Source of the DNA: Chiridota heheva
Lineage: Eukaryota; Echinodermata; Holothuroidea; Apodida; Chiridotidae
Assembly: GCA_020152595.1 (NCBI GenBank)
Contig: JAIGNY010000137.1
Span: 162,501 to 226,500, forward strand
Direction of reading: 5' to 3'
DNA: 64,000 nucleotides
Part shown: positions 264 to 48,751 of the stretch, one piece after another
Numbering within the stretch: the first letter of the stretch is position 1
Layout of the letters: the number at the start of each line of letters is the position of its first letter
Notes under the pieces: generated by a model
Told to the model about the DNA's origin: nothing
Database searches by the model: none
The model's input: the letters and a program-made list of their open reading frames with translations, nothing else
Translations under genes and position numbers: made by a program

Positions 264-3200
264 ACAAACTCCACCAGGGTCAGATATAACACCAACATCA
301 TTTATAATGCATATTGAGTCAGTAGAGGATCAAACTCCACCAGGGTCAGATATAACAACAAGATCATCTACGATGCATATTGAGTCAGTAGAGGATCAAA
401 CTCCACCAGGGTCAGATATAACAACACCATCATTTATAATGCTTATTGAATCAGTAGAGGATCAAACTCCACCAGGGTCAGATATAACACCAACATCATT
501 TATAATGCTTATTGAATCAGTAGAGGATCAAACTCCACCAGGGTCAGATATAACACCAACATCATTTATAATGCTTATTGAATCAGTAGAGGATCAAACT
601 CCACCAGGGTCAGATATAACAACACCATCATTTATAATGCTTATTGAATCAGTAGAGGATCAAACTCCACCAGGGTCAGATATAACAACACCATCATTTA
701 TAATGCATATTGAGTCAGTAGAGGATCAAACTCCACCAGGGTCAGATATAACAACACCATCATTTATAATGCTTATTAAGTCAGTAGAGGATCAAACTCC
801 ACCAGGGTCAGATATAACAACACCACCATTTATAATGCATATTGAGTCAGTAGAGGATCAAACTCCACCAGGGTCAGATATAACAACACCACCATTTATA
901 ATGCTTATTGAGTCAGTAGAGGATCAAACTCCACCAGGGTCAGATATAACAACACCATCATTTATAATGCATATTGAGTCAGTGGAGGATCAAACTCCAC
1001 CAGGGTCAGATATAACAACACCACCATTTATAATGCATATTGAGTCAGTAGAGGATCAAACTCCACCAGGGTCAGATATAACAACAGAATCATTTATAAT
1101 GCTTATTGAATCAGTAGAGGATCAAACTCCACCAGGGTCAGATATAACAACACCACCATTTGCAATGCATATTGAGTCAGTGGAGGATCAAACTCCACCA
1201 GGGTCAGATATAACAACAACATCATTTATAATGCTTATTGAATCAGTAGAGGATCAAACTCCACCAGGGTCAGATATAACAACACCACCATTTATAATGC
1301 ATATTGAGTCAGTAGAGGATCAAACTCCACCAGGGTCAGATATAACAACACCATCATTTATAATGCTTATTGAATCAGTAGAGGATCAAACTCCACCAGG
1401 GTCAGAGATAACAACAAGATCATCTACGCTGCATATTGAGTCAGTAGAGGATCAAACTCCACCAGGGTCAGAGATAACAACAAGATCATCTACGCTGCAT
1501 ATTGAGTCAGTAGAGGATCAAACTCCACCAGGGTCAGATATAACAACACCACCATTTATAATGCATATTGAGTCAGTGGAGGATCAAACTCCACCAGGGT
1601 CAGATATAACAACACCACCATTTATAATGCTTATTGAGTCAGTAGAGGATCAAACTCCACCAGGGTCAGATATAACAACACCATCATTTATAATGCATAT
1701 TGAGTCAGTGGAGGATCAAACTCCACCAGGGTCAGATATAACAACACCACCATTTATAATGCATATTGAGTCAGTAGAGGATCAAACTCCACCAGGGTCA
1801 GATATAACAACACCATCATTTATAATGCATATTGAGTCAGTAGAGGATCAAACTCCACCAGGGTCAGATATAACAACACCATCATTTATAATGCTTATTA
1901 AGTCAGTAGAGGATCAAACTCCACCAGGGTCAGATATAACAACACCACCATTTATAATGCATATTGAGTCAGTGGAGGATCAAACTCCACCAGGGTCAGA
2001 TATAACAACACCACCATTTATAATGCTTATTGAGTCAGTAGAGGATCAAACTCCACCAGGGTCAGATATAACAACACCATCATTTATAATGCATATTGAG
2101 TCAGTGGAGGATCAAACTCCACCAGGGTCAGATATAACAACACCACCATTTATAATGCATATTGAGTCAGTAGAGGATCAAACTCCACCAGGGCCAGATA
2201 TAACAACAGAATCATTTATAATGCTTATTGAATCAGTAGAGGATCAAACTCCACCAGGGTCAGATATAACAACACCACCATTTGCAATGCATATTGAGTC
2301 AGTGGAGGATCAAACTCCACCAGGGTCAGATATAACAACACCATCATTTATAATGCTTATTGAATCAGTAGAGGATCAAACTCCACCAGGGTCAGATATA
2401 ACAACACCACCATTTATAATGCATATTGAGTCAGTAGAGGATCAAACTCCACCAGGGTCAGATATAACAACACCATCATTTATAATGCTTATTGAATCAG
2501 TAGAGGATCAAACTCCACCAGGGTCAGAGATAACAACAAGATCATCTACGCTGCATATTGAGTCAGTAGAGGATCAAACTCCACCAGGGTCAGAGATAAC
2601 AACAAGATCATCTACGCTGCATATTGAGTCAGTAGAGGATCAAACTCCACCAGGGTCAGATATAACAACACCATCATTTATAATGCTTATTGAATCAGTA
2701 GAGGATCAAACTCCACCAGGGTCAGATATAACAACACCACCATTTATAATGCTTATTGAATCAGTAAGAGGATCTAACCCCACCAGGGTCAGATATAACA
2801 ACAAGATCATCTACGATGCATATTGAGTCAGTAGAGGATCAAACTCCACCAGGGTCAGATATAAGAACACCACCATTTATAATGCTTATTGAATCAGTAG
2901 AGGATCAAACTCCACCAGGGTCAGATATAACAACACCATCATTTATAATGCATATTGAGTCAGTAGAGGATCAAACTCCACCAGGGTCAGATATAACAAC
3001 ACCATCATTTATAATGCTTATTGAGTCAGTAGAGGATCAAACTCCACCAGGGTCAGATATAACAACACCACCATTTATAATGCTTATTAAGTCAGTAGAG
3101 GATCAAACTCCACCAGGGTCAGATATAACAAAACCACCATTTGCAATGCTTATTGAATCAGTAGAGGATCAAACTCCACCAGGGTCAGATATAACACGAT

Positions 3201-3432
3201 CATTTATAATGCTTATTGAGTCAGTAGAGGATCAAACTCCACCAGGGTCAGATATAACAACACCACCATTTGCAATGCTTATTGAATCAGTAGAGGATCA
3301 AACTCCACCAGGGTCAGATATAACAACACGATCATCTACGATGCATATTGAGTCAGTAGAGGATCAAACTCCACCAGGGTCAGATATAAGAACACCACCA
3401 TTTGCAATGCTTATTGAGTCAGTAGAGGATCA
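264..3432. repeat. 66-bp minisatellite, about 48 units, with a 17-unit higher-order duplication
   Basis: Tandem array with a 66-bp unit (22 codons) open in one plus-strand frame, giving long frames of 863 and 244 aa whose repeat core reads ESVEDQTPPGSDITTPSFIM. A small indel near 2770 separates the two frames. Variant units mark a larger repeat: the unit with AAG instead of GAG/GAA at 772-780 recurs at 1894-1902, 1122 bp (17 units) away. The variants around it recur in the same order, including the paired TCTACGCTG units near 1430/1495 and 2550/2615. Many unit differences change the amino acid (S/P, H/L, D/E, I/A), so purifying selection on the frame is not evident. No promoter, splice structure or known domain supports a gene. 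It lies downstream of the last recognised FERM exon, on the opposite strand sense. Confidence 0.9.
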
Positions 3433-3597
3433 GGTGGTTCCATGGATGAGACCACGCCACATTTCTATAATATTATTCTCACATTTGAAAAGGTTTTGGA
3501 CTAACACTTATTTTGTTATTTTTTTTGACGAGCATAAACCAGACGTATGAAATATTTAATTAATACCGAATACCTTGGTTACATGGGCCCAGTGTGC

Positions 3598-4702: not shown

Positions 4703-4815
4703 CTTTCTTATGTGCATATGATGGTCTTCTTGAAAATCTCTGACTTGGCTTTCTTTCTATTTGCATCATTCTTCTTGAGCGATTCTGTTTTGCTGATTGG
4801 AATTCGGTTTTTCCA
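4703..4815 (-). CDS. EPB41L5: Yurt/EPB41L5-like FERM protein, exon F (start of FERM-adjacent region)
   Basis: This 113-nt exon is too short for simple ORF detection. The acceptor is a T-rich run ending TTAAAG and the donor is G|GTAATT. It enters in phase 2: its first T completes an AG|T serine codon with the previous exon. It leaves in phase 1. The frame begins GKTEFQSAKQNRSRR and later shows ERKPSQRFSRRPS. From memory of the family, EPB41L5 proteins have a closely similar GKTEYQ stretch and an ERRPSKR..RR motif straight after FERM, in the basic FERM-adjacent segment that carries phosphorylation sites. RxxS-type sites are visible here (RKPS, RRPS). No further downstream exon was recognised in the last 4.7 kb of the window. 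Confidence 0.85.
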
Positions 4816-7935: not shown

Positions 7936-8105
7936 CTGTATCTAAACTTCGATCCCCTCCTTACAAAACCTTGCTTCTCTTCTCTTTGTTTCACAGGGCC
8001 TTTAAGTCTAAAGAATGCATGGTGTTCCACCGCACATTTCCACAAGTGCTTGCAAGCCTTGGCATTGTCTAATGCGAATACGAAATTATGCTCCTGCTCA
8101 GTTCC
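7936..8105 (-). CDS. EPB41L5: Yurt/EPB41L5-like FERM protein, exon E (second half of FERM F3 lobe)
   Basis: This 170-nt exon has acceptor TTTTTATTAAG|GGA and donor AGATACAG|GTAAAT. It enters in phase 0 and leaves in phase 2. The frame starts [10 protein letters not shown] and contains [18 protein letters not shown], the hallmark of the last strands and C-terminal helix of the FERM-C (PH-like) lobe in EPB41L5/EPB41L4B/Yurt. It ends GSKFRY. The lobe binds membrane proteins such as Crumbs-type tails in this family (established knowledge, not visible here). The junction with exon D restores the family motif VVEDDx..EQEH without a gap. The intron on its 5' side holds the 39-bp donor array and two nested LINEs. 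Confidence 0.95.
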
Positions 8106-8340: not shown

Positions 8341-9611
8341 CACGTGGTCACTATAGCAGCTTCAACCAATAAACTGTAACCTCAATAGCAGATTCGTCCC
8401 ATAAACTGTAACCTCTATGGCAGCTTCATCCCATAAACTGTGACCTCTATAGCAGCTTCAACCAATAAACTGTGACCTCCATTGCAGATTCATCCCATGA
8501 ACTGTGACCTTATAGCAGCTTTAAGCACATGAAATCTGTGATTACATTGCAGCTTCATCCCATAAACTCTGTGACCTCTATAGTAGCTTAATGCACAGAG
8601 ACACTGTGACCGCTATAGCAACTTCATCCACAAGAACCCTGTGAACTCTATACCAGATTCGACCCATAAACACTCAGACCTCTATAGTAGATTCATCCAC
8701 ATGTACCCTGTAGCCTCTATAGCAGTTTCACTTATATGAACCCTGTAACCTCAATGGCAGATTCATCCCATAATCTCTGTGACCTCTATAGTAGCTACAT
8801 CCCATAAAATGTGACCTCTATATCAGCTGCAACCAATAAACTGTCACCTCAATAGCAGATTCATTCTATAAACTGTGACCTTTATAGCAGCTTCATCCCA
8901 TAAACTCTGTGACCTCTATAGCAGCTTCATCCCTAAACTCTGTGACCTCTATAGCAGCTTCATCCCCAAACTCTGTGACCTCTATAGCTGCTTCATCCCC
9001 TAAACTATGAGACCTCTATAGCAGCTTCAAGCACATGAACCCTGTGACCTCTATGGCAGATTCATCCCATAAACTGTAACCTCCATTGCAGATTCATCCC
9101 ATAAACTCTGTGACCTCTATAGCTGCTTCATCCCTTAAACTATGTGACCTCTATAGCAGCTTCAAGCACATGAACCCTGTGACCTCTATGGCAGATTCGT
9201 CCCATAAACTGTGACCTCTATAGTAGCTTCATCCCATAAAATGTGACCTCTATATCAGCTGCAACCAATAAACTGTCACCTCAATAGCAGATTCATCCCA
9301 TAAACTGTGACCTTTATAGCAGCTTCATCCCATAAACTCTGTGACCTCTATAGAAGATTCATCCCTTAAACTATGTGACCTCTATAGCAGCTTCAAACAC
9401 ATTAACCCTGTGACCTCTACGGCAGATTCATCCCATAAACTGTGACCTCTATAGCAGATTCATCCCATCAACTCTGTGAACTCTAGAGCAGCTTAATCTA
9501 CATGAAACCTGTGACCTCTATAGCAGCTTCAAGCTCATGAACCCTGTGACCTCTATAGCAGATTCATCCCATAAACACCTATCACCTCTATAGCAGATTC
9601 ATCCCATCAAA
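8341..9611. repeat. 34-bp minisatellite, first segment
   Basis: Units of about 33-34 bp with core TGACCTCTATAGCAGCTTCA followed by a variable spacer (CCCATAAACTC, AGCACATGAACCC and others). Divergence between units is considerable. The array continues at 10531 and 13967 after two LINE insertions, so it was originally one block of roughly 2.8 kb. Confidence 0.9.
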
Positions 9612-10530
9612 TGTGATCTCAGTCATAGCTGAAATTGAAGGCTGTTTGAAAATAGTAAAAGATTGGATGATTTACAACAAACTAAAAATGAAAGAGTTAA
9701 AAAGTGAAGTCTTTATTTTTGGATCCAATTACCAACTAACAAAATTAAATATTGGCAGTATTGCTATTGGTAACGACAGTGTGAAATTATCTTCCACTGT
9801 CAAATATTTGAGCGCTTGGTTAGATCAAGGTATGACAATGGCTGACCATGTCAATCACAAATGCAAAACTGCATTTTACCATTTTTTTAACATTAGAAGG
9901 TGCATGAAGTTTCTGGACAGCTCTGCAATATCACTTGTAAATGTACTTGTGCATAGCTGCATAGATTATTGCAATGTCCTCCTTGCAGGGTGCCAGGTAT
10001 TACAGTAAAAAAGTTGCAGCGAGTTCAGAATTATGCTGCAAGGCTCGTCACAAAAAGCAACTGTTTCACTCCATCACTTTATCTACTGCAAAATCTTCTT
10101 TGGCTACCGGTCTCATATAGAATTAAATTTTAAATTTTAAAAACTCATTTTTAAATCCCATCATAACTTGGCCCCGTTATATCTGACCGAAATGTTTCAT
10201 TATAAACAAACTAGTTACCGCCTTCGCTCTCAAAACCACCTCATCCTTTATGTTCCAAAAAGTAAACTTACATATGGCTATTGCTCTCTGCAAATATTTG
10301 GCCCAAAACTTTGGAATGACTTACCTCTTTTAATCAAATCTGCTCAATCCCTTAAACAATTCCACACCTTGCTTAAGACTCACTTACTTAATTGTGCTTT
10401 CAAGTGCTCTTCATGATTTTTTTGTTCTTTCTTTTCTTTATATTTCATACTTATCTTATTTACACATTTGTATTTATTTTCTTTATATGCATATTTTGTA
10501 AGGCGCATTAGAATAAGTTATTTAGATAAG
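9612..10530 (+). mobile_element. CR1/L2-like LINE, 5'-truncated, 3' end of ORF2
   Basis: Plus-strand remnant of a non-LTR retrotransposon inserted in the 34-bp array. It keeps the post-catalytic reverse transcriptase region: thumb-like and conserved C-terminal motifs such as LVHSCIDYCNVLLAG, then after a frame break APLYLTEM and FGPKLWNDLP. The catalytic YADD box is absent. A stop at 10005-10007 and a frame change near 10130 break the frame, so it is a dead copy. The 3' UTR is T-rich and ends about 10530 with GGCGCATTAGAATAAG. It has the opposite orientation to the I-type LINE that interrupts the same array. Confidence 0.85.
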
Positions 10531-11015
10531 CACATGACCCCTGTGACCTATATTGCAGCTTCATTTACATGAACCCTTTGACCTCTTTAGCAATTCATCT
10601 CATAAACTGTGACTTCTATAGCAAATTCATCCCATTAACTGTGACCTCTATAGCAGATTCATCCCATAAACTCTGTGACCTCTAAAACAGCTTCATGCAC
10701 AGGAAAACTGTGACCTCTATAGTAGCTTCATCTACATGAAGCCTGCGACCTCTATAGCAGATTCATCCCATAAACGCTGTGACCTCTACAGCAGCGTCAT
10801 GCACAGGCACACTGTGACCTCTATAGCAGATTCATCCACATGTATCCTGTGACCTCTATAGTAGCTTCATCTACATGAAGCCTGCGACCTCTATAGCAGA
10901 TTCATTGCACAAACTCTGCAACCTCTATAGCAGCTTCATGCACAGGAGCTCTGTGACCTCTATAGCAGATTCATCCACATGTACCCTGTGACCTCTATAG
11001 CAGCTTCATGCACAT
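10531..11015. repeat. 34-bp minisatellite, second segment
   Basis: Continuation of the array from 8341-9611, lying between two LINE insertions. It ends in TGCACAT at 11009-11015, which recurs at 13967-13973. Confidence 0.85.
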
Positions 11016-13966
11016 GATTGATTGATGATTAATTAGGGATTAACAGCACCACGACAACGAGGGTCAAATTGTGCCTGAAAGGTCAGATCATTCTAGAGGT
11101 AGGAAGAAAAGGAAACAGGGAGAGAGCGAGAGAAATATAAGAACAAAAAGTCAGAAAGCTGGGATCGAGAGAGGAGGTGCATGGGTAAAGAAAAAAAAAA
11201 AAAAAAAAAAAAAAGTAAAGAGAGGGGGTGGAAGAGGGGAACTAAATATGGTTGCAGAGGGAGGCATGATGAAGGAAAGGAGATAATTTTATCCGGAGAG
11301 TATTTCTGGAAGAAATCAGCAATTGAGTTGTGAGGAGCAAGGGAAGCTCTGAGAAGGTTGTACAGGGGGCAAGCACGGAGAACGTGATAGGCTGTGAGGG
11401 TGCAATGGTAATTGTTGCTGAGGGGTCGGGGGAGCCAATAAGGAGGTGGGAGTGAGTGAGGTGGGTGTGACCTATTCTAAGATGGGTAAGATGAACGTTG
11501 TTAATACTAGAGAGGTTGTTGATGGTGGGCTGGATGACGAGGAGTTTGTTATCAATATGGGACTTCCATGAGGTTTGCCAGTGGTCACGAACAAGGGAAG
11601 CGATAAGCGGTTTGATTTCAGAAAGGGTTTTGGGAAAAGGGGTAGGGGGAGGTTGAGGGCAAGCTTAGCGGCTGCATCAGCCCTGTCATTGCCAGGGATG
11701 CCAACATGGCTGGGTATCCAAAAGAAATGAATACTTTTCCCGCAGAGGGTGGGCAAAAGGAGTTTCAGTAGGAGGAGGTGGGATGTGAAGTTATCCCATT
11801 TAAGATTGAGTAAAGAAGTAAGAAGAGCGTTGGAGTCGAAGAATATGGCAAAGTGGCTGAGCAGAGAGTACTTTTTGTTCTCGCGGGTCGGGAAGTCTGC
11901 TACTGAGGGTGATGTCTTAGATGACAACAGCAGCTGTCTTGTTGCCTTCCTTTAGAACTATCAGTATGGATGGAGGTGTAGTTTGAGAGTTGGTATTTGA
12001 TTTGCTTGTGGAGATTGATGAAGAGGTTAGGATGGGTTTGGGTTTTGTGATGAGTGGAGAGGCCCAGGTGGATAGAAGGGAGGGAGTGGCCCAAGGAGGA
12101 AAAGTGGGCCAGGAGAAGGTGCCGAGAGTGGCGAGGTTGATGTTATTATGCAGGAGGTCTGATATAATGCGTAAGCTTAAGGGAGAAGATAGGGTTTTAG
12201 TCTTATCAAAGAAGGTGAAGAAAATGGGTACCTAATGAGGTGGTAAACAAGGTTGTGGATGTTGGTGAGGACTATAAAAGCATAGGAGAAGCTAGGTTTT
12301 CTACATCTAAGTAGAAAGGAGGATTCGTTGGCCTCAACATGAAGGCTGGTGATTGGGGAGGTCCTGTAAGCACCTAGACAAAGCCTGAGGGCTTCATTTT
12401 GGATGGTGTTGATGTGGTTGAGGTATGAGTTGTGAGCGACACAGTAGACAATATTGCCGTAGTCAAGCTTGGCATGAATGGTGAGCCTGAAGATTTTGAG
12501 GAGAGTATGGTGGTTCGCACCCCAAATGGTGTTGGAGAGAAGGTGGAGAATGTTGAGGGAGCTGTTGCATTTTAGTTTCAGATTGATGATGTGTTGCTTG
12601 TAGGAGAGCTTAGGGTCTAGAGTTAAACCCAGGAAATTCATGTGTTCAACTTTAGGAATGTGATTGCCATTGAGCACGAGGTTCGGGTTGGGGTGTAGGT
12701 TGTTGAAATGACAGAAGTTCATGCAGACTGTCTTGTCTTTGGAGAATTTAAAACCATTATTGTTGTACCAGACTTGCAGCTGGATGAGGCTGAATTGGAG
12801 TCTATTTTTGACAAGAGGAAAGCTAGGGGAGAAGTAGAAGATGGTGAAGTCGTCCACGTAGAGGGCACGTTTGATGTTGGTGCCAAGGTTGTCGGGGGGA
12901 CGCCTTCTTCTTGGGGGTACAGGTTAGAGAGGGTGTGGCCAATACAAACTTGGAACTGCCTGGGCGAGAGGAAGTTTTGAATAAAGATGGGGAGATGGCC
13001 TTTGAGGCCGATGGCGTGAAGTTTGCGGATAATGCCGATTTCCAAGTTTTGTCGAAAGCTTTCTCGAGGTTGAAAAAGATGGCAATGCGGTGTTCCTTTT
13101 TTGCAAAGGTTTCCCGGATAGCGGTGTAGAGCGTAATCAACTGGTCCAGGTTATTGCTACGTTTCCGGAAGCCGGTTTGGTGAGGGGAGAGGATTCTGTT
13201 GGTCTCAAGAAACCAGTTTAGTCTCTGATTAATGATCCTTTCCATAATTTTACAGAGACAGCAGGTGAGGGCAATGGGGCGGTAGCTGGAGGTGTCGGTA
13301 CTGTCCTGTCGGTACTGTTTGGAGGTTTTGAAAATTGAGCAGGTGGCAATGTTGTTAAGGATATTACTGAAGTTTGACATGGGATCCTCACCCTTGAGGA
13401 GATGGAGGGGAGAGGTGTGAGTCACAGAGGGTTTCGAAAAGGAGCCAGTCAGCCTTCTCCAGGTTCCAATTTGGTGTGTGGTCAGTGGGGGTTTGAAGAC
13501 TGGAGTGTATAAGAAGAGGGTGATGGTCAGTACCACAGAGATCAGCAGTGACTCTCCAGCTAAAACCAAGAAGGAGGTTGGGGGAACAGATAGACAGGTC
13601 TATACAGGTAAGGAAGCCTGTGGGAGGGTGAAGGTAGGTCGGAGAGTTAGTGTTGAGCAAGGAGAGGCTGTGCTGCTGAAGAGTGTTCCTGATGAGCTTG
13701 CCTCTGGGGGTGGTGGTAATAGAGCCTCACAGAGGGTTGTGGGCATTGAAGTCACTAAGAAGGATGAAGGAGGAGGAGAGCTGAGAGATAAGGTTGTTAA
13801 GACTGGCTGGCTGAACGTTGGCGTTGGAAGAGGGGAGCTGAGAGATAAGGTTGTTAAGACTGGCTGGCTGAACGTTGGCATTGGAGGAGGGGGGGAGAGA
13901 GAGATATTGCAAAGAGTGAAGGTTTTGTGGAGGGAGATAGACATACAGATGGCCTGAAGGTCGGTG
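11016..13966 (-). mobile_element. I-superfamily LINE copy A (endonuclease, reverse transcriptase, RNase H; internally deleted)
   Basis: Minus-strand element inserted in the 34-bp array, with a candidate 7-bp target duplication TGCACAT (11009-11015 and 13967-13973). In element order: apurinic-type endonuclease with LLSDFNAHNPLWGS (near 13750) and DLCGTDHHPL (near 13550); reverse transcriptase with YVDD (near 12855); RNase H with HVGIPGNDRADAA (near 11700); then the family 3' end. Compared with copy C it lacks roughly 0.7 kb between the end of the endonuclease and SSYRPIALT. The first RT aspartate (DLEKAFD in C) reads NLEKAFD here. A 57-bp stretch is tandemly duplicated at about 13777-13890. 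Several frameshifts occur and an A24 run stands near 11190. Not functional. Confidence 0.9.
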
Positions 13967-14998
13967 TGCACATATGCTTCATCCCTATGAAGCCTGTGAC
14001 CTCTATAACAGCTTCATCTATATCAACCATGTGACCTCTATAGCAGATTCATCCATATGAACCCGGTGACCTCTATAGCAGCTTCATCCATACAAACACT
14101 GTGACCTCTATAACAGCTTCATCATGTGAACACTGTGACCTCTATAGCAGCTTCATCCACAGGAACCATATAACCTTTATACCAGCTTCATCCATATGAA
14201 CCCTATTACCTCTATAGCAGCTTTATCCATATGAAGCCTGTGGCCTATATAGCAGCTTCATCCATATGAACCCTGTGACCTCTATGGCAGCTATGCACAG
14301 GAACACTGTGACCTCTACAGTAGCTTCCTCTACAGTAGCTTCATCCATATAAACCCTGTGATCTCTATAGTAGCTTTAACTATATGAATTCGTGACCTCC
14401 ATAGCAGAATCATCCCCTAAACCCTGTGATCTCTATAGTAGCTTTAACTATATGAATTCGTGACCTCCATAGCAGAATCATCCCCTAAACCCTGTGATCT
14501 CTATAGTAGCTTTAACTATATGCGTGACCTCCATAGCAGAATCATCCCCTAAACCCTGTGATCTCTATAGTAGCTTTAACTATATGAATTCGTGACCTCC
14601 ATAGCAGAATCATCCTCTAAACCCTGTGATCTCTATAGTAGCTTTAACTGTATGAATTCATGACCTCCATAGCAGAATCATCCCCTAAACCCTGTGATCT
14701 CTATAGTAGCTTTAACTATATGAATTCGTGACCTCCATAGCAGAATCATCCTCTAAACCCTGTGATCTCTATAGTAGCTTTAACTATATGAATTCGTGAC
14801 CTCCATAGCAGAATCATCCCCTAAACCCTGTGATCTCTATAGTAGCTTTAACTATATGAATTCGTGACCTCCATAGCAGAATCATCCTCTAAACCCTGTG
14901 ATCTCTATAGTAGCTTTAACTGTATGAATTCATGACCTCCATAGCAGAATCATCCTCTAAACCCTGTGATCTCTATAGCAGCTTCATCCATATGAACT
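13967..14998. repeat. 34-bp minisatellite, third segment, with a 68-bp higher-order unit
   Basis: Resumes the array from 10531-11015. From about 14357 to 14960 the unit becomes a regular 68-bp dimer alternating GTGATCTCTATAGTAGC and GTGACCTCCATAGCAGAATC halves. About nine dimers are much more alike than the flanking monomers, indicating recent re-amplification. Confidence 0.9.
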
Positions 14999-15330: not shown

Positions 15331-15344
15331 GTGGACCTCTTGTT

Positions 15345-17026
15345 TGACCTATACTTACATGTTCATCATCTTCTACTACAGCTTGACTTATACTTACATG
15401 TTCATCATCTTCTACTACAGCTTGACTTATACTTACATGTTCATCATCTCCTACTACAGCTTGACTTATACTTACATGTTCATCATCTTCTACTACAGTT
15501 TGACTTATACTTACATGTTCATCATCTTCTACTACAGCTTGACTTATACTTACATGTTCATCATCTCCTACTACAGCTTGACTTATACTTACATGTTCAT
15601 CATCTTCTACTACAGCTTGACTTATACTTACATGTTCATCATCTTCTACTACAGCTTGACTTATACTTACATGTTCATCATCTTCTACTACAGTTTGACT
15701 TATACTTACATGTTCATCATCTTCTACTACAGTTTGACTTATACTTACATGTTCATCATCTTCTACTACAGTTTGACTTATACTTACATGTTCATCATCT
15801 TCTACTACAGTTTGACTTATACTTACATGTTCATCATCTTCTACTACAGCTTGACTTATACTTACATGTTCATCATCTTCTACTACAGTTTGACTTATAC
15901 TTACATGTTCATCATCTTCTACTACAGTTTGACTTATACTTACATGTTCATCATCTTCTACTACAGTTTGACTTATACTTACATGTTCATCATCTCTACT
16001 ACAGCTTGACTTATACTTACATGTTCATCATCTTCTACTACAGTTTGACTTATACTTACATGTTCATCATCTCTACTACAGCTTGACTTATACTTACTTA
16101 TACTTACATGTTCATCATCTTCTACTACAGTTTGACTTATACTTACATGTTCATCATCATGTTCATCATCTTCTACTACAGTTTGACTTATACTTACATG
16201 TTCATCATCTTCTACTACAGTTTGACTTATACTTACATGTTCATCATCTTCTACTACAGTGTGACTTATACTTACATGTTCATCATCTTCTACTACAGCT
16301 TGACTTATACTTACATGTTCATCATCTTCTACTACAGTTTGACTTATACTTACATGTTCATCATCTTCTACTACAGCTTGACTTATACTTACATGTTCAT
16401 CATCATCTTCTTATACTACAGTTCATCATCTTCTACTACAGTTTGACTTATACTTACATGTTCATCATCTTCTACTACAGTTTGACTTATACTTACATGT
16501 TCATCATCTTCTACTACAGCTTGACTTATACTTACATGTTCATCATCTCCTACTACAGCTTGACTTATACTTACATGTTCATCATCTTCTACTACAGTTT
16601 GACTTATACTTACATGTTCATCATCTTCTTATACTTACATGTTCATCATCTTCTACTACACTTACTTATACTTACATGTTCATCATCTTCTACTACAGCT
16701 TGACTTATACTTACATGTTCATCATCTTCTACTACAGTTTGACTTATACTTACATGTTCATCATCTTCTACTACAGTTGACTTATACTTACATTGACTTA
16801 TACTTACATGTTCATCATCTTCTACTACAGTTTGACTTATACTTACATGTTCATCATCTTCTACTACAGTTTGACTTATACTTACATGTTCATCATCTTC
16901 TACTACAGCTTGACTTATACTTACATGTTCATCATCTTCTACTACAGCTTGACTTATACTTACATGTTCATCATCTTCTACTACAGCTTGACTTATACTT
17001 ACATGTTCATCATCTTCTACTACAGC
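15345..17026 (-). repeat. 39-bp array: amplified exon end plus 5' splice site
   Basis: About 40 tandem 39-bp units. On the minus (gene) strand each unit is 24 nt identical to the end of FERM exon D (codons AVVEDDEH) plus 15 nt of the start of the following intron, GTAAGTATAAGTCAA. The first unit, 17026-16988, is the real exon/intron border. Each further unit copies the donor CAT|GTAAGTAT. The unit is 13 codons with no stop, so reading through gives [13 protein letters not shown] repeats; a minus-strand frame stays open from 17185 to 16646. Variation is mainly C/T at one site (A or T in the peptide). A few partial units occur near 16083-16160, 16390-16440 and 16625-16800. Confidence 0.95.
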
Positions 17027-17161
17027 CAAATGAAGTTTCCTATGCTTGAAGTTCAGTTTTGTCACCTTGGGCCAGAAGAATAAACCAATTTTATGCAAGC
17101 CTTCAAATACAAGAATACCTGTTGGAGTAAGCCCCAGAGTGTATTGGCCATCGTCTTTACC
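17003..17161 (-). CDS. EPB41L5: Yurt/EPB41L5-like FERM protein, exon D (first half of FERM F3 lobe)
   Basis: This 159-nt exon is exactly 53 codons. The acceptor is TTATTCTTACCAG|GGT and the donor CAT|GTAAGTAT, phase 0 on both sides. It encodes [13 protein letters not shown] followed by [15 protein letters not shown] and ends VVEDDEH, the first strands of the PH-like FERM-C lobe; the GLFFWPKI/VTKLDF motif is diagnostic for 4.1-family proteins. It is separated from exon C by only 275 bp. The last eight codons and the donor have been amplified into the 39-bp array that follows directly. If the first donor is used the mature message is normal. If a later one is used, 13-residue blocks are added in frame. 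Confidence 0.95.
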
Positions 17162-17436: not shown

Positions 17437-17524
17437 TTTGACATCATGGAGATCAACACCATACATTTCCAACCATTTGGCTCTGTTTAAAAAAGTCATC
17501 TCAGCATCTGCAGGTGTCAGACCC
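17437..17524 (-). CDS. EPB41L5: Yurt/EPB41L5-like FERM protein, exon C (end of F2 lobe, link to F3)
   Basis: This 88-nt exon has acceptor TTTTCAG|GGG and donor GTCAAA|GTGAGT. It enters in phase 2 and leaves in phase 0. The frame reads [20 protein letters not shown] then YGVDLHDVK. The TPAxAE..FLN.AK.LEMYGVD pattern is the standard last helix of the FERM-M lobe in the EPB41L5/Yurt group. The reading frame joins exon B (ending ..KFGALG) without a stop. Confidence 0.95.
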
Positions 17525-18864: not shown

Positions 18865-21819
18865 TGCTTAGAAAATTATTGGGGGCATACCTCCTCCCAT
18901 CACAGCCCTTGGTGTCGGTGCCCCTGGTAAAATGTTATGCTTCAATTATGTCAAATAAATACTAAAATGTATGTGACCACCTCTATGTATTTTGTAGTAT
19001 TTGTGAGTGAGTGGATGAGTGGATGAGTGAGTGAGTTTTCAAGCATGAAGAATGACTAGAATAACTTTAAATAACTTTCAAAAGGGTGCCTCCAGGTTCC
19101 AGACCAGTCTGCCCACAGAATCGAGACCAGTGCACCCACAACTTTCAAAAGGGCAACTCCTGCCCCCGTCGCACAATTTCAAGTGGCACATTCTGCCCCT
19201 TACTCTAGAGCCAGGGCCCCCTTCTTGCCGCCGTGGTTCTTACATTGTTGCAGAGGCCAAAATCCCCTATGTGCCCACAGGACTCTAGTTGCCCCACTGT
19301 GTATGGGAGCTTTAATATCGTTTTAATAAGTGAAAACTGTTTTTCAAGTAAGCCTAAAAAAACTTAATATGATGCAAATTTTATCAACAATGTTTGCTTT
19401 TAAGTGAAATAGAAATCATAGACAGACAACAGCAAAATACTTTTGTATAAAATCAAAAAGGATTTTATTAATTATTGTTAATGCAATTAAGGAATCACAA
19501 TTAATCAATAATAGCATCTAGGCCTATTAGCATCCCACAAATACACTTCCAAGTAGCAATGATTATAACAAAATATAACCAAAACGATCTTTAAAAAAAC
19601 TTTCTTTTGAAGTCCTCTTTAATAAAAGCTGATAAGATGAATCTACTTGACCCCTGAATCCTTTAAGATACCCACAGTGATTTTCCCAACAAAGGAAAAG
19701 AATGTTCCTATAATCGAAAGAATTTGTCCGGAAAGGAAAGAAATTACCCCAGAATTGGCTTAAAATTCCCGAAAGTGAAAAAGCCTGTGTCCGGAACTGA
19801 AAGAAATTACCTCTAAATTGGCCAAAACGTTCCAGAAAATAAGCAAAATTTTCCAAAAATGAGCAAAATTTTCCAAAAATTGAAGAAAACTACCCAAAAA
19901 TAAAAGAAAATTTCACAAAGATGTTCTGAAAATCGAAGAAAATTGTCCGGATATGAAGAAAAATTTCCGAAAAGAAAGCAAAAGTTACCCGGGGGAAGGG
20001 GGGAGGGAAGGGGGAGGGAGGGGGCATATAGCAAGTCAAATATCTATCGAAAAGGTCTGTTTTTTATATTGGCAACCCTATTCCCACTCCGCCACTATTA
20101 ATTTCTTTAAAAAGGCATTGTATTTTTGCATAAGTTACAGTAATACAGTCTGTAGCCTTGCAAACAAACAAGTTACTGTTTACAGGGATCTGTTGATTAG
20201 GAATAACAAATCCCTGCTGTGTAAAAGATTACTGCAAGCCAGATCATGTGTCTAATGTGATCTACAGGGGACTAAAGCTCGGAGTTTTTGTTTTGTTTTG
20301 TTTTTATCAGTGAGTTATTAACACTTTTTGGTGATTTTACAGAAAAAGATTTAATCGCATTATATGGTTGAAATAACCTATTTGAGCTATTTAGCCATTC
20401 TTGGCTTTTAATAGGTTTTTTAAACCAATTTATAACCCAAAACAGCTATCAACTACAATAGTTATACGCCAATTAGACTACTCATTGGAAGAAATCCCAA
20501 ACAGGATATCATGCTTGATTAGCATATGTGTAATACAGTATTTTAACATTCAAGCCAATGAAAACATAAGTTTTCTTTCAATCGGAGATGATCAGTGGTA
20601 TTTCCTGAGCCTATGTTAATATATATGCTAAATTCATTTGGACTGCGCCAAGTGAAATCCGAGTATTTGAAAGATTTTAAGTAAATTTTGGAATGCCGAA
20701 TTCGTTAAAACTACACAACAATATAAATTGTTATTGTATCAACATATCGTTCTATTTAAGCTAAACATAGCAACACAGCAAAATATCCAAAAGACGCATA
20801 GGATATGATAAACGCTGCAAAAACCCTAATGTATCCGGGAGAGAACCTGGCTCTTAAGTTAGTCATTGCATTAGCTTAAATCCCTTAAAGGGATATTGAG
20901 CTAAAAATGGATGTACGATCCAGCATATCTTAAATAACTCCTTTGAAAAGACCATTGGAAAAAAAAACTACTCCATGAAACCTGTAACACATACGTTTCC
21001 TTAAGTGAACATAGACAGTAGAGTGTCTGCAGGAAGTGGGACACTTAATCAGTATGTTGACTGTCACACTGATACCAAATATAACACAGTATCTATCTAC
21101 GGTTCATGAGATATTAAAATCACAAGCATTTTGAAATTAAATCCTGCGGACCATGAACATTAGTGCTATAGAACCTATTGACAACATAACTGTGTATGCA
21201 ATTAATCATTATCAAAGCAAGTATGATGCAAAACAGATACAGCTGCTCATCTATAATTTCAAGAATTTGACATTATAAGCCTGCCACTCAGGCTGCTGCC
21301 ACTCATCATAGGATATATAAAAACACCACAAGGAATCTATGTATAAAGTAAGCTGTGTGACAAAATCATAAATATGTTTGTGTAGATATCAACATTTAGT
21401 CATACCTTCTCATTAACAATCAAACCATTTACCTGTAAGTGTGTGTATGGGGGTGGGGGGGGGTACCCCTATCTGTCCAGAGAAATGAATACCTTCCTCA
21501 CTATTCTTTTACTTAATAATATTACAAAGACATAATTAGCAGTGAAACATATATGAAACCTTGTATGCTTAAAGAATGATGTATACACAAACAAAATTGT
21601 CATGACAAAGCCATAACTGAATAAGTTTACCAGCTATTGTTTATGTGGCATGGAAGCTTGTCAAAAACCCTCAGGTTTGAGTGAATGAATCAAAGACATC
21701 GATCATTAAGCATGCAATGTTTCCTCTATGTTTTCCAGTTATGAAGTAAAAGAATGGTGAAGAAAGCATTCATTTCTCTGGACAAAGTACAAAAGGAAAG
21801 TAACAAATACTGCATCTTG
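18865..21819. other. Intron B-C, mostly unique sequence
   Basis: About 3 kb without a supportable gene. It contains (GTGA/GGAT)n near 19010-19040 and degenerate short repeats of an AAAATTTTCC(A/G)AAAATG type at about 19680-19980. A G-rich run of at least five GGG tracts stands at 19989-20025. A second G run is at about 21447-21465. Confidence 0.4.
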
Positions 21820-22353
21820 CATTGATATTTAACTAAGACTTGCATTGATATTTAACTAAGACTTGCATTGATATTTAACTAAGACGTGCATTGATATTTA
21901 ACTAAGACTTGCATTGATATTTAACTAAGACTTGCATTGATATTTAACTAAGACTTGCATTGATATTTAACTAAGACTTGCATTTATATTTAACTAAAAC
22001 TTGCATTGATATTTAACTAAGACTTGCAATGATATTTAACTGAGATTTGCATTGATATTTAAGTAAGACTTGTGATGATATTAACTAAGACTTGCATTGA
22101 TATTTAACTAAGACTTGCAATGATATTTAACTGAGACTTGCATTGATATTTAACTAAGACTTGCAATGATATTAACTAAGACTTGCATTGACATTTAACT
22201 AAGACTTGGATTGATATTTAAATAAGACATTCATTTATTTAAGACTTGCATTAATATTTAATTAAGATTTGCATTGATATTTAACTAAGACTTGCATTGA
22301 TATTTAAGTGAGACATTCATTCATTTAACAAGACTTACATTGATATTTAAGTA
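21820..22353. repeat. 23-bp minisatellite, first segment
   Basis: Units of about 23 bp with core ACTTGCATTGATATTTAACT. Near-perfect at the left, degenerate at the right. It is interrupted by a LINE at 22354 and continues at 23876. Confidence 0.9.
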
Positions 22354-23875
22354 ATAATAATAATAATAATAATACATTTATATAGCCGTCCTTTCTATAC
22401 AAGCATATTCAAAAACGCTTTACAAAAAATAACATGAATACATTACATACTTACTTACTAAAATAAACCATAAACAAATGTGTTTTGATTGATTTCAGAG
22501 ACACTTGAAGACAATTGATTTTTCTTATTTGAAGTGGGAGATCATTCCACCAAAGTGGGCAGAGTCTGCAGAGTGCTCTACCCCCCAGAGTAATACATGA
22601 AATATTGGGTACATTAAGCCAGACTGCGGATCTGTTTCTTAGATCATAAGTGGTGTTTGATGAAATTATTAAGTTTTGAAGATATTTTGGGGCCATTTTA
22701 TAGATACATTTAAAAACAAGAACAAGTATTTTATATCTTATACGCATTTCAACCGGTAACCAATGTAGTGAATATAACAAGGGAGTAATATGGCAATATT
22801 TGTTTGATTTAGTTACAACACGTGCCGCAAAATTCTGTATTTTTTGGACGTTTTGAATTAAGCAATGTGGCATACCAGCCAAGAGAGAGTTGCAGTAGTC
22901 AATGTGTGAATGAACAAATGAATGAATTAGGGTCTCTGTTGCACTGTTTGTCAATATATTTCTTATTTTATTGATGATGTACAAATTTACAAATGCAGAC
23001 CTGCATTTTTTCATAACGTGCTGCTTTAAGTTTAAGTTGCTATCCAGCCACACTTCTAAATCACGAACACAATGGACAGCATTAACTAAACCACCACCCA
23101 CTTTGACAGATTTTTGGGTCAATTTATTGAGTTGAGGAGTAGTGCCAAACAAAATAACCTCCGTTTTGGCATCATTCATTTTAAGCTTGTTTTAAAGCAT
23201 CCACCTTCTAACATCCTCTAGGCAGCTTTCCATTTTAGTAATAGCTTCTGATTCAGAAGAAGCACTTGTGATTTTAAAACTAAGCCACAACCTATGGTCA
23301 TCAGCATACCCAGAGACATTAGGTGAATGCTTCTTAATCACACTGAAAATGGTTGAGGCATACAATGTAAAAAGTATGGGGCCACAACATGAACCCTGGG
23401 GTACTGAAAAATGTATACATTTTTCAGACGAGCATTCTCCATTTACAATAACTTTTTGCCTACGATTTGACAGATAGGATTCAAACCACAGAAGTGCAGT
23501 ATTGTGTACACCGAAATGAGATTTAAGCACCCTAAGCAATATCTCATGATCTATTGTGTCAAAGGCAGCACTAAGATCTAACATGACCACCAATGACACC
23601 ATTTGCTTATCCATACCCATTAAGAGATCAGACTTGAACCGTAACAAATCGGTTTCTGTACTGTGGAACACACGATAAGCTGATTGGTACACAGGTAAGA
23701 GATTTTGGTCATTCAGGTGCTGATTCAACTGTGTTACAATTGCCTTTTCTGTGATCTTGGAAAGGAATGGAAGGTTGTTAACAGGCCTATAGTTCTTGAA
23801 GACCAATGGTAGTCCTTTCTTTTTTAGGAGTGGTGTGATGACTGATGTCTTCCATTCTTCTGGAAACATTCCCTC
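22354..23875 (-). mobile_element. CR1/L2-like LINE, 5'-truncated, with 8-bp target site duplication
   Basis: Minus-strand element with a (TAA)n 3' tail at 22354-22372. ORF2 reads from about 23869 down to 22451: RT boxes NYRPVNNLP, LDLSAAFDTIDHEIL, VPQGSCCGPILF and YADDH, then the C-terminal HSHIDYCNSLLAGMP and WWNDLPL motifs. The frame is whole except for one stop, TAA, at about 23188-23190 between WML and NKLKMNDAKTEV, probably a C-to-T change in CAA. The flanks carry TTTAAGTA at 22346-22353 and 23876-23883, an 8-bp target duplication. Upstream RT, endonuclease and ORF1 are missing by 5' truncation. Confidence 0.92.
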
Positions 23876-24390
23876 TTTAAGTACTAAGACATTGATTTAT
23901 TTAACTAAGACTTGCATTGATATTTAATTAAGACTTGCATTGATAACTAAGACTTCCATTAATATTTAAGTAAGACTTGCATTGATATTTAATTAAGACT
24001 TGCATTGATATTTAATTAAGACTTGCATTGATATTTAAGTAAGACTGGCATTGATATCTAACTACGACTTGCAATGATATTTAAGTAAGACTTGCAATGA
24101 TATTTAAGTAAGACTCCCATTGTTATTTATCTCAGACTTGCATTGGTATTTAAGTAAGACTTTCAATGAAATTTAAGTACTAAGACATTGATTTATTTAA
24201 CTAAGACTTGCATTGGTATTTAACTAAGACTTGCAATGATATTTAACTAAGACTTTCATTGATATTCAACTAGGACATTAATTTATTGAACTAAGACTTG
24301 CATTGATATTTAACTAAGAATTGCATTGTTATTTAACTAATACCTGCATTGGTATTTAAGTAAGACTTGCATTGATATTTAACAAAGACT
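23876..24390. repeat. 23-bp minisatellite, second segment
   Basis: Continuation of the array at 21820. It contains at about 24171-24202 an uninterrupted TTTAAGTACTAAGACATTGA stretch that matches the sequence the LINE split at 22353/23876. Confidence 0.9.
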
Positions 24391-25580: not shown

Positions 25581-28321
25581 AAGATCTGTTGTGTCTATGT
25601 TGGCTTGTTTTTTCGTTGGATCTGTCCCTGTTTCTTTGGGAGTGGTTGTTTTTGAAAATTGGACAAGAAGTATGTTTGTTGGGTTCGGTAATCGAACAAT
25701 CCATGTTCTCTTCAGTGTCATACATGTGGGTTTGGATAGTGAGCTGTTTGTTTGTTGGCCAGATGGCTTGAGTTTGATGGCAATTGAGGTGTTAGAATGG
25801 GGCGAGGGGGTCTTAGAAAAGGAAGAAAGGTTGGGGAGAGAGGTGGGGGTGGAGGTAGTTTGTGTTATGAGTGTGGTTGGGTTGTTGACAAAGCCAATGG
25901 GCTTAGGACTCAGTAAGAAGTGCCAGGTGAGGTCGGTGTGGGCATATGAGTCAGTTATAGTTGTGTTAAGGTGGGGGGGGGGAATCTTTGTGTTTGAGGA
26001 GACTGTGCTCGAGTAGGAAGGTTTGGTGTGGAGGGAAGCGAGGAATTGCTTTCTGGCCTCCAGATAAGTGGTGCTCGGATTAAGGGTTTTCAGTTTAGTT
26101 ATCTGTTTTTTCTGAGGCCAAGTGAGGCAGTCTTTTCAGAAGAAGGGATGGTTGGCTGGGTGAGTACCGTCGTAATTGGTGCAGTGTGGGGCGTTGGTGC
26201 AAGAGGCACTGTCATAGTCCGAGGCTCCACAGTTGCCACAGTGCGCTTGGCTGCGGCAGGAGTTTTTTCCATGGTCGTATCTCTGGCACTTATGACAGCG
26301 GAGAGGGTTGGGAATGTAGGTGGCGACTGAGATTCTCAGATAGCCGGCAGTGACATGGGAGGGAAGAGCTAGGGTGGCAAAAGTCAGGAAGATGGTATTG
26401 GTGGGTGTTTGGGTATTGGTGGGTTTTCCGGTATTGGTGGGTGTTTAGGTATTGGTGGGTGTTTCGGTATTGGTGGGTGTTTCTGTATTGGTGGGTGTTT
26501 GGGTATTGGTGGGTGTTTGGGTATTGGTGGGTGTTTGGGTATTGGTGGGTGTTTGGGTATTGGTGGGTGTTTGGGTATTGGTGGGTGTTTCGATATTGGT
26601 GGGTGTTTCGGTATTGGTGGGTGTTCGGTATTGGTGGGTGTTTGGGTATTGGTGGGTGTTTGGGTATTGGTGGGTGTTTGGGTATTGGTGGGTGTTTGGG
26701 TATTGGTGGGTGTTTGGGTATTGGTGGGTGTTTGGGTATTGGTGGGTGTTTGGGTACTGGTGGGTGTTTGGGTATTGGTGGGTGTTTGGGTATTGGTGGG
26801 TGTTTGGGTATTGGTGGTGTTTCGGTAATGGTGGGTGTTTGGGTATTGGTGGGTGTTTGGGTATTGGTGGGTGTTTGGGTATTGGTGGGTGTTTGGGTAT
26901 TGGTGGGTGTTTGGGTATTGGTGGGTGTTTGGGTATTGGTGGGTGTTTGGATATTGGTGGGTGTTTGGGTATTGGTGGGTGTTTGGGTATTGGTGGGTGT
27001 TTCGATATTGGTGGGTGTTTCGATATTGGTGGGTGTTTGGGTATTGGTGGGTGTTTGGGTATTGGTGGGTGTTTGGGTATTGGTGGGTGTTTGGGTATTG
27101 GTGGGTGTTTGGGTATTGGTGGGTGTTTGGGTATTGGTGGGTGTTTGGGTATTGGTGGGTGTTTGGGTATTGGTGGTGTTTCGGTATTGGTGGGTGTTTT
27201 GGTATTGGTGGGTGTTTGGGTATTGGTGGGTGTTTGGGTATTGGTGGGTGTTTGGGTATTGGTGGGTGTTTGGGTATTGGTGGGTGTTTGGGTATTGGTG
27301 GGTGTTTGGATATTGGTGGGTGTTTGGGTATTGGTGGGTGTTTGGGTATTGGTGGGTGTTTGGGTATTGGTGGGTGTTTGGGTATTGGTGGGTGTTTGGG
27401 TATTGGTGGGTGTTTGGGTATTGGTGGGTGTTTGGGTATTGGTGGGTGTTTGGGTATTGGTGGGTGTTTGGGTATTGGTGGGTGTTTGGGTATTGGTGGG
27501 TGTTTGGGTATTGGTGGGTGTTTGGGTATTGGTGGGTGTTTGGGTATTGGTGGGTGTTTGGGTATTGGTGGGTGTTTGGGTATTGGTGGGTGTTTGGGTA
27601 TTGGTGGGTGTTTGGGTATTGGTGGGTGTTTGGGTATTGGGTGGTGGTGGGTGTTTGGGTATTGGTGGGTGTTTGGGTATTGGTGGGTGTTTGGGTATTG
27701 GTGGGTGTTTGGGTATTTGGTGGGTGTTTGGGTATTGGTGGGTGTTTGGGTATTGGTGGGTGTTTGGGTATTGGTGGGTGTTTGGGTATTGGTGGGTGTT
27801 TGGGTATTGGTGGGTGTTTGGGTATTGGTGGGTTTTTCGGTAATGGTGGGTGTTTCGGTAATGGTGGGTGTTTTGGCACTGTCTCTCTTGAGGATGAGAC
27901 AATGGGCTTCAGTGACGTGTTGGCTGGCAAGTTCCTCAACGAGGTCTTCATTGGTCAAGTGGGCAACATCCCTGGTTCTGATGATGCCTTTGCGGGAATT
28001 CAGGAAACAGTGGGGAGTGACTGATATGTCGATACCAGTATTAGATAGGTTTTTGGTGGTGGAGAGAGGGTGGTGGATTGAGTGTCCCTTTTGTAATGCA
28101 CCAGAATAATGCCAGATCTGAGAGTAGAAACTTTGGAGAGGGTAACGACAAGGCCATGTAGCGCCTTGTGGATGAGGAAGGGAGGAAACTCTTTTGAAAC
28201 TGTGAATGATTACACTTTTGGGGACTAGGGCTAAAGAATGGTCAATGGGGGTAGCAGGTAGGTCACAGGGAGGAAAGAGAGAGTCAAAGTCAAGGCAGAA
28301 GTGTTTGTTCATGTTGGACAA
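25581..28321 (-). mobile_element. I-superfamily LINE copy B, ORF1 with zinc knuckles and an inserted hexapeptide array
   Basis: The minus-strand ORF1 starts at ATG 28321-28319. N-terminal part (to about 27890): LDFDSLFP, then RKGIIRTRDVAHLTNEDLVE and LASQHVTEAHCL. It then enters the 18-bp array (27872-26394) and resumes with IFLTFATLALPSHVTAGYLR and YIPNPLRCHKCQRYDHGKNS, a CCHC knuckle, followed by CGNCGASDYDSASC, a second knuckle with D in place of H. This is the usual layout of I/jockey-group nucleic-acid-binding ORF1. A TGA at 26138-26136 interrupts the frame after the knuckles; the frame then continues with KDCLTWPQ and a Pro/Ser/Thr-rich tail. The array should break the frame where unit indels occur (for example near 27646 and 27716). 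Confidence 0.85.
26394..27872. repeat. 18-bp minisatellite (about 80 units) inside LINE ORF1
   Basis: Highly homogeneous array, plus-strand unit GGGTATTGGTGGGTGTTT (18 bp, six codons). Neither strand has a stop in any frame of the unit, so all six frames are open for hundreds of codons; these long frames are not genes. In the ORF1 frame the unit reads TPTNTQ. Variant units (CGATATTGG, CGGTATTGG, one-base indels near 26628, 26816, 27173, 27640 and 27716) shift frames. It lies in intron B-C of the FERM gene. Confidence 0.95.
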
Positions 28322-28619
28322 AAAATACTAAGGGCCGGGAGACCCAAAGCATCTAGAAAAAGAAAGAAAAAAGTCACAGAACTACTATATGAGAACCACT
28401 GTACAAGTACCGAAAAGATGTGTAGGCTTGGTCACACTGGAAGGGGAAAAAAAAAAGGAAAGATCTTACCGAAAACAGTCACCCATCCACAAAGAAAAGG
28501 TTAGGTGGAAAAGTGTAGAGTATAATCAGAATGGGAAGTTTAAAAGAACAGATAGGAAATCATGTTCATTACAACATGTTCAAGTTGCAGTATCTTAACC
28601 TGCTAAACATTTGGAAGCA
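28322..28619. other. Probable 5' region of LINE copy B
   Basis: A-rich stretch upstream (in element sense) of the ORF1 ATG. It is probably the 5' UTR of the element, but the 5' boundary is not visible. No gene. Confidence 0.35.
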
Positions 28620-32062: not shown

Positions 32063-32183
32063 CCTAATGCTCCAAATTTGTTTACTATGTCCACTTCCAT
32101 CTCTTCAGTTTGATCAGGTGTAAATCGGAATTCTGAGACCAGCTCTGGAGTGTGCTCCTCCGGGTCATAATCACCAAGTTCAG
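32063..32183 (-). CDS. EPB41L5: Yurt/EPB41L5-like FERM protein, exon B (F2 lobe)
   Basis: This 121-nt exon has acceptor CCTTTTTTCAG|CTG and donor TTAGG|GTGAGT. It enters in phase 1 and leaves in phase 2. Joined to exon A it reads ..[14 protein letters not shown], then [20 protein letters not shown] and KFGALG. LQ(S/A)ELGDYD and the ELVSEFRF..(N/D)QTEEME stretch are specific to FERM-M lobes of the Yurt/EPB41L5 type. Its 5' intron contains LINE copy C and the 34-bp GATGTAGCC array. Its 3' intron is 14.5 kb. Confidence 0.95.
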
Positions 32184-37640: not shown

Positions 37641-37774
37641 AAATGATGATATAAAACAAAATTTGTGCAGAGTAAAGTGAAAAACTGAGCGAAATATTAA
37701 GAAACAAAAGAATCAGATAGAAGTCACGTCGCTCTAGTTGCACACGCTGCAGTTGATTAGTTCAGTTGTTTTTG
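37641..37774. other. Junction between LINE copy C and the GATGTAGCC array
   Basis: About 130 bp of A-rich sequence with nothing recognised. Confidence 0.4.
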
Positions 37775-39975
37775 ATGATGATGATGATGGATGTAGCCCC
37801 TACAGGTGATTATGCCGGATGACAATGGATGTAGTCCCTACAGTTGATAATAATGATGACGGATGTAGCCCCTACAGGTGATAATGATGGTGATGGATGT
37901 AGTTCCAACAGGTGATAATGATAGTGGTGGATGTAGCCCCTACAGGTAATAATGATGGTGATGACTGTAGCCCCTACAGATGATAATGATGGTGATGAAT
38001 GTAGCCCCTACAGGTGATGATGATGAGTGTAGCCTCTACAGGTGATGATGAGGATGATGGATATAGCCCCAACAGATTATATAATGATGATGATGGATGT
38101 AGCCCTTACAGGTGATAATGATGATGATGATGATGAATGTAGCCCCTACAGTTGATAATGATAATGATGGATGTAGCCTCTACAGGAAAAAATGATGATG
38201 ATGATGATGATGATGATGGATGTAGTCCCTACAGGTGATAATGATGATGATGATGGATGCAGCCCCTACAGGTTATAATGATGATGACGGATGTAGCTGC
38301 TACAGGTGGTAATGATGGTGATGAATGTAGCTCTAACAGGTGATAATGATAGTGATGGATGTAGAGCCTACAGGTGATAATGATGGTGATGCATGTAGCC
38401 CCAACAGGTGATAATGATGGTGATGAAATGTAATCCCTACAGGTGATAATGATGGTGATGGATGTAGCCCCAACAGGTGGTAATGATGGTGATGGATATA
38501 GTCCCAACAGATGATAATGATGGTGATGGATGCAGCCCCTACAGGTGAAAGGATGATGGATATAGCTCCAACAGTTGATAATGATAATGATGGATGTAGC
38601 CCCTACAGATGATAATTATGGTGATGGATGTAGCCCCAACAGGTGATAATGATGGTGATGAAATGTAATCCCTACAGGTGATAATGATGGTGATGGATGT
38701 AGCCCCAACAGGTGGTAATGATGGTAATGGATATAGTCCCAACAGATGATAATGATGGTGATAGATGCAGCCCCTACAGATGAAAATGATGATGGATGGA
38801 TGGATGTAGCTCCAACAGGTGATAATGATGATGATGATGGATGTAGCCCCTACAGGTGATAATGATGGTGACGAATGTAGCCCCTACAGGTGATAATGAT
38901 GGGATGAATGTAGCCCCTACTGGTGATGATGGATGCAGCCCCTACAGGTGAAAATGATGATGGATGGATGTAGCTCCAACAGGTGATAATGATGGTGATG
39001 ATGGATGTAGCCCCTACAGGTGATAATGATGGTGATAAATGTAGCCCCTACAGGTGATAATCATGGTGATGAATGTAGCCCCTACAGGTGATGATAATGG
39101 ATGTTGCCTCTACAGGTGATGATGAGAATAATGGATATAGCCCCAACAGATGATAATAATGGTGATGGATGCAGCCCCTACAGGTGAAAGGATGATGGAT
39201 ATAGCTCCAACAGTTGATAATGATAATGTTGGATGTAGCCCCTACAGATGATAATGATGGTGATGGATGTAGCCCCTACAGGTGATGATGATGGATGTAG
39301 CTCCTGCAGGTGATAATAACAATGATGTATGTAGCCCCTACAGGTGATAATGATAGTAATGAATGTAGCCCCAACAGATGATAATAATGGTGATGAATGT
39401 AGCCCCTACAGGTGATGATAATGGATGTAGCCACTACAGGTGATGATGAGGATGATGGATATAGCCCCAATAGATGATAATGAGGATGATGGATGCAGCC
39501 CCTACAGGTGAAAGGATGATAGATATAGCTCCAACAGTTGATAATAATAATGATGGATGTAGCCCCTAGAGATGATAATGATGGTGATGGATGTAGCCCC
39601 TACCAGTGATAAATATGGTGATGAATGTAGCCCCTACAGGTGATTATGACGGATGTAGCCTCTACAGGTAATAATAAGGATGATAGAAAGCCCTACAGAT
39701 GATAATTATGGTGATGGATGTAGCCCCTACCAGTGATAATTATGGTGATGAATGTAGCCCCTACAGGTGATTATGACGATGTAGCCTCTACAGGTGATAA
39801 TGAGGATGATGGATGCAGCCCTACAGGTGAAAATGATGGTGATGGATGTAGCCCCTACAGGTGATGATGATGGATGTAGCTCCTGCAGGTGATAATAACA
39901 ATGATGTATGTAGCCCCTACAGGCGATAATGATGGTAATGGATGTAGCTCCTACAGGTGATAATGATGATGATGG
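37775..39975. repeat. Degenerate 33-36 bp minisatellite
   Basis: About 65 units. Plus-strand core GGATGTAGCCCCTACAGGTG followed by a variable (ATAATGATGGTGAT)-like run, so part of each unit is itself a GAT/GAN microsatellite. Unit length varies. The array ends about 70 bp from the donor of exon A, in intron A-B. Confidence 0.92.
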
Positions 39976-41369: not shown

Positions 41370-41424
41370 TAGATATTTTCTCTTGTCCCTTCAGATTTAT
41401 ACAGCCATTCTTTAGACAGAAACT
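41370..41424 (-). other. Coding-like flank of the 50-bp array (3' side in minus sense)
   Basis: Continues the array unit frame on the minus strand. After AENVEATDDEF it reads LSKEWLYKSEGTRENI and then a TAG stop. The product is unknown. It may be an exon end or a fossil ORF. Confidence 0.3.
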
Positions 41425-48689: not shown

Positions 48690-48708
48690 ATAATAATAAT
48701 AAATAATG

Positions 48709-48751
<43 letters not shown>

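Follow-up and report, generated by a model that had tools for sequence, protein, structure and literature searches.

Donor-spanning arrays in human genes

Minisatellites that span a 5' splice site are known from human genes, in which the repeated donors are used in different ways. In intron 7 (IVS7) of F7, which carries 37-bp repeats, splicing is reported to use the most upstream donor of the series and no other (PMC6627357). In ABCA7, intron 18 holds a VNTR whose 25-bp unit recurs about 12 to 427 times; it starts with the exon 18 donor, the GT forming the first two nucleotides of the unit (PMC5954066). Retention of a single unit is described as rare, is the sole form of retention reported in the available text, and gives a product with a premature stop that is subject to decay (PMC5954066). 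The frameshifting ABCA7 isoforms are quoted at 14 +/- 6 and 2 +/- 1%, 'respectively', values that by the paper's order are taken to be those of a cryptic acceptor and of one-unit retention (PMC5954066). Longer ABCA7 arrays are associated with increased skipping of exon 19 and reduced expression (PMC5954066). The CBS VNTR c.1444_1467+7(16_21) has a 31-bp unit in 16-21 copies, which, judged by its name, comprises 24 exon nt and 7 intron nt (PMC2630376). Not every duplicated junction favours the first site, to judge from another CBS variant: in 844_845ins68, a duplicated intron 7/exon 8 junction, the more distal of two sites, called donors in the available text, is strongly favoured (PMC2630376). 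Several U1 particles may initially bind one pre-mRNA, with the surplus removed later (PMC8283771).

The host gene

The window analysed here is a 64,000-nt stretch of DNA from Chiridota heheva. A FERM gene runs across it on the minus strand, and six exons were matched by tblastn at 58-73% identity to an approximate human EPB41L5 probe sequence (matches at 40143-40039, 32184-32074, 17529-17437, 17164-17006, 8108-7938 and 4817-4725). Upstream lie exons A (40044-40141; ...LALQ), B (32063-32183; ...KFGALG) and C (17437-17524; GLTPADAEM...HDVK). Exon D (17003-17161), placed by tblastn, Pfam and the sequence itself, encodes FERM F3 residues in 159 nt and is in phase 0 at both ends. Exon E (7936-8105; ...FRY) is 170 nt long, with its acceptor at 8105 and donor GTAAATGG from 7935, and exon F (4703-4815; SGKTEFQSAKQNRSRR...) is a downstream, post-FERM stretch that also matches the probe. 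The ends of exons A, B, C and F were judged by eye, as was the agreement of reading phases at all five joints of the six exons. The first-pass annotation of this DNA had paired exon D with acceptor 8105, and the pairing holds: joining the first donor to that acceptor (TTTTTTCTTTTTATTAAG|GGAACT) yields the FERM_C (F3) domain, PF09380, at 87.5 bits (cut-off 23). The intervening intron is 8.9 kb long.

By its similarity, the host gene is an EPB41L5/yurt-like FERM gene, as first annotated. A placement nearer EPB41L5 than other FERM subfamilies is tentative: all six exon matches, post-FERM stretch included, are to the approximate EPB41L5 probe; the PDB chains matched include 4.1B, FARP1/2, 4.1R and others, none of which bears the EPB41L5 name. 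In zebrafish and mouse, loss of this gene is reported to lead to defects in the embryo (PMC2266719).

Anatomy of the array

The head of the intron downstream of exon D is occupied by a head-to-tail minisatellite with a 39-nt unit (15344-17026, minus strand), delimited by TRF and by reading the sequence. At period 39, TRF gives 36.4 copies at 15344-16793 and 6.0 copies at 16793-17026. Read on the minus strand, the unit consists of the final 24 nt of exon D, GCTGTAGTAGAAGATGATGAACAT, followed by the initial 15 nt of the intron, GTAAGTATAAGTCAA. The first unit is the exon D/intron border itself, with the first donor and its 15 intron nt at 16988-17002, in agreement with the initial description of the unit. 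That this border is live is suggested by the conserved FERM_C product obtained from it. Later copies retain an intact donor: 44 GTAAGTAT donors are present in the array, and one copy has lost its donor within a 65-nt spacing (16457-16393; our own reading of the sequence). After the cut, GTAAGTAT is presumably a match to the complement of U1. Each copy had been said to carry CAT| directly before the cut, which is true of 42 of the 44 donors and fails for 2. Elsewhere in the window, GTAAGTAT occurs only twice on the gene strand and twice on the opposite strand.

The copies are highly uniform. Thirty of the 44 donor-started stretches fall into two sequences (17 and 13 copies) that are a single A/G position apart, and there are 13 distinct sequences, including that of the 44th stretch, which extends into unique intron. 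Outside the donor 8-mer, the 39-nt units show only three types of substitution; the last, partial unit adds a fourth. Donors 1-6 have identical 24 upstream nucleotides except for A/G at the first position, and all 44 share the same 8-mer. Selection on that 8-mer was considered and set aside, the test being without power, since the 8-mer defined the units and the units show few substitution types.

In anatomy, the array is a further case of what is known from human F7, ABCA7 and CBS, and the initial remark that no such case had been described is refuted by these precedents (PMC6627357; PMC5954066; PMC2630376). It resembles the ABCA7 array in having a live first unit with the donor GT inside the unit; the ABCA7 unit, as described, is intronic from the GT onwards, 25 nt long and frame-shifting, whereas the unit here includes 24 exon nucleotides and is in frame. 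The CBS unit, again going by its name, likewise includes 24 exon nucleotides, but at 31 nt it is not a multiple of three. Neither is the 37-bp repeat of F7, which occurs in 5-8 copies, fewer than here. Compared with human units of 37, 25 and 31 nt, the present array differs in its 39-nt open unit, which allows one-unit leakage without a frame shift. No other in-frame donor-spanning array was found in the literature searched, which does not prove absence from print.

Reading frame from each donor

As first annotated, the 39-nt unit amounts to 13 codons of open frame. Spacings between donors are divisible by three in 35 of 43 cases; the other eight, of 16, 38, 37, 25, 65, 10, 38 and 38 nt, shift the frame. 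When products with exon E were predicted for all 44 donors, the frame was kept by nine (donors 1-6 and 8-10, at 16675-17002, the exception in this stretch being donor 7 at 16791) and a premature stop followed from the other 35. The stop falls at codon 126 for donor 7 and at codon 172 in every exon extended to one of donors 11-44 (15358-16638), both numbered from the start of exon D. Predicted exon D lengths are 159 to 354 nt with donors 1-6 and 408 to 486 nt with donors 8-10. The first-pass statement of about 40 copies in frame does not hold, and the proposed ladder of n x 13 residues over about 40 steps does not survive, the frame being lost after donor 10. The protein could gain length from eight donors beyond the first, as opposed to some 40.

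The spacings show no sign of selection for frame. On the exon side, the run of frame-clean spacings is 5 long (P = 0.34; 20,000 spacing shuffles), and the longest such run, 16 spacings, lies at the intron end (P = 0.015; same shuffles). If the array served a coding function, the exon side is where the frame would be expected to be preserved, and the shuffling test shows no excess of clean spacings there; selection for frame was rejected as unsupported. Weak selection is still compatible with the data because the first six donors at the exon side are clean.

Donor use and its consequences

The array is most simply read as passive, a reading to which a probability of about 0.78 is assigned. A 39-nt segment that happened to span the exon D/intron border would have been duplicated in tandem, giving rise to a young, homogeneous minisatellite and to a pre-mRNA with 44 near-identical 5' splice sites. 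Nearly all splicing would then start from the first donor, which makes the ordinary 159-nt exon, in the manner of human factor VII, with the units after it discarded as intron. Donors 2 to 6, if used on rare occasions, may add 13 residues per unit to the F3 loop, donors 8 to 10 would likewise keep the frame, and any remaining donor would produce an mRNA with a premature stop. Both the dominance of the first donor and this low-level leakage are suggested by precedent. By the same analogy, donor 2 may account for perhaps a few percent of the mRNA. One option offered in the first-pass annotation, that the first donor always wins, appears to be the one that the F7 and ABCA7 precedents fit best.

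Predicted exposure in the RNA does not single out the first donor. Its mean unpaired probability is 0.40, while the other 43 donors average 0.42 (pairing limited to 150 nt), and structural exposure favouring it was rejected in the absence of a difference. The lack of a predicted structural advantage counts against first-donor dominance. Duplicated consensus donors reportedly favoured the intron-proximal copy in work by Eperon and others. Splicing that strongly preferred the last donor would be difficult to reconcile with a functional gene, because 35 of the 44 donors, including the most intron-proximal, destroy the frame; it would place a stop in the mRNA of a gene with an embryonic loss phenotype, which argues against such a preference without proof. 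New internal exons would not easily be formed by the array because its unit has no acceptor-like tract: the longest pyrimidine run is 2 and pyrimidines reach at most 7 of 15 positions. New exons or recursive splicing within the array were rejected on this ground. Across the window, Rfam returned 0 matches at gathering score.

Looser choice among the first in-frame donors would instead produce a ladder of FERM proteins, with F3-loop steps of 13 residues from donors 2-6. Several features accord with this. The near-identical contexts of the early donors and the frame kept by donors 1-6 and 8-10 would permit it, and retained units would add residues between EDDEH and GTEQEH, a point that lies at or beside a two-residue gap of 4.1B and 4.1R in the PDB-chain alignments, where these proteins are shorter; insertion into a variable F3 loop is plausible from these alignments. 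With one unit inserted, Pfam FERM_C is still matched at 84.7 bits, versus 87.5 bits without it, a score that shows no more than the profile's tolerance of an insertion at this point. The second donor of the ABCA7 array is also usable, although the available text reports low-level retention of one unit alone (PMC5954066), and F7 is described as using its first donor exclusively (PMC6627357). Together with the absence of a frame-keeping excess near the exon and the location of the longest clean run at the far end, this makes such a ladder unlikely. Its heritable, length-variable form, with extensions of 13 to 65 residues (repeats of VSISQ[A/T]VVEDDEH) from donors 2-6 and of 83 to 109 from donors 8-10, is considered equally doubtful.

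An effect in cis is improbable: here, the 44 U1 sites or the length of the array would alter intron removal, exon E skipping or premature polyadenylation. By analogy with ABCA7, in which longer arrays accompany more next-exon skipping and reduced expression (PMC5954066), a donor array of great length is not necessarily innocuous, and the initial binding of multiple U1 to one pre-mRNA (PMC8283771) is in keeping with such an effect. The sequence here nevertheless has no feature that sets the array apart from a passive repeat, and skipping of the 170-nt exon E would break the frame. An assembly error or a peculiarity of one individual is highly improbable, for although the array is known from one assembly, the substitutions and indels scattered among its copies, with 13 distinct sequences in 44 stretches, are unlike mechanical duplication and many comparable arrays lie nearby.

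A minisatellite-rich setting

Tandem arrays cover 25,892 of the 64,000 bases of the window (40.5%). The count of 28 arrays was obtained by merging 85 TRF rows by hand, with overlapping or adjoining rows joined and rows 19993-20024, 48688-48761 and 53281-53315 left out. As a repeat, the donor-spanning array is far beyond chance; its coincidence with an exon border is not. The expected number of arrays seeded across any of 12 exon borders is 0.19, with a probability of 0.18 for at least one, and the same estimate is 0.12 when restricted to the 17 arrays longer than 300 bp; the model is rough, taking a single unit as the seed and treating all places alike. The 12 borders are those of the known exons of this gene, with ends in the calculation that differ by at most 3 nt from those given above, and the remaining 27 merged arrays overlap none of them. 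An array at an exon border is unsurprising because arrays fill about 40% of the window, which was itself chosen for oddity. A whole genome of such density should hold many border arrays unless selection removes them.

Of the other arrays in the window, the nearest to an exon border is a 2.2-kb array (37773-39975) that starts 68 nt past the exon A donor. A 66-bp array of 48 copies (265-3432), antisense to the FERM gene, has 22 codons per unit; two plus-strand frames stay open, one of QTPPGSDITTPSFIMHIESVED repeats over 873 aa (205-2826) and a second over 260 aa (2768-3550), and the open unit of the array, a multiple of three, may be due to chance. An 18-bp array of about 82 copies (26394-27873) has several open frames on both strands, the longest being 647 aa on the minus strand (26384-28327). 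At 41420-46354, a 50-bp array of about 99 copies extends for nearly 5 kb, its minus-strand unit containing ACTCAGGTGCAG; no exon was recognised in the stretch read beside it. Within one intron, the arrays at 8351-9620, 10531-11017 and 13976-14996 have units that by eye seem related (CTATAGAGGTCACAG...), and the sequence separating them looks, again by eye, like a retroelement. One 23-bp minisatellite is present at both 21816-22354 and 23883-24390, flanking two open frames (22451-23191 and 23192-23896) that we take to resemble reverse transcriptase, as if an element had inserted into a single array.

Implications

With this array, a donor-spanning minisatellite is added to those of the human genes for which the literature searched describes them, in a gene whose protein is only 58-73% identical to the human probe. 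The locus would offer a natural setting in which to test how a 5' splice site is chosen from 44 near-equal candidates. In cDNA, use of the first of these would be visible as 39-nt steps without a premature stop, unlike the one-unit product described for ABCA7 (PMC5954066). A stepwise ladder without frame shift is impossible for the human units of 37, 25 and 31 nt. If such a ladder does exist here, the levels of its FERM proteins would be set by the choice of the spliceosome among near-identical donors and would differ between alleles with the length of the array.
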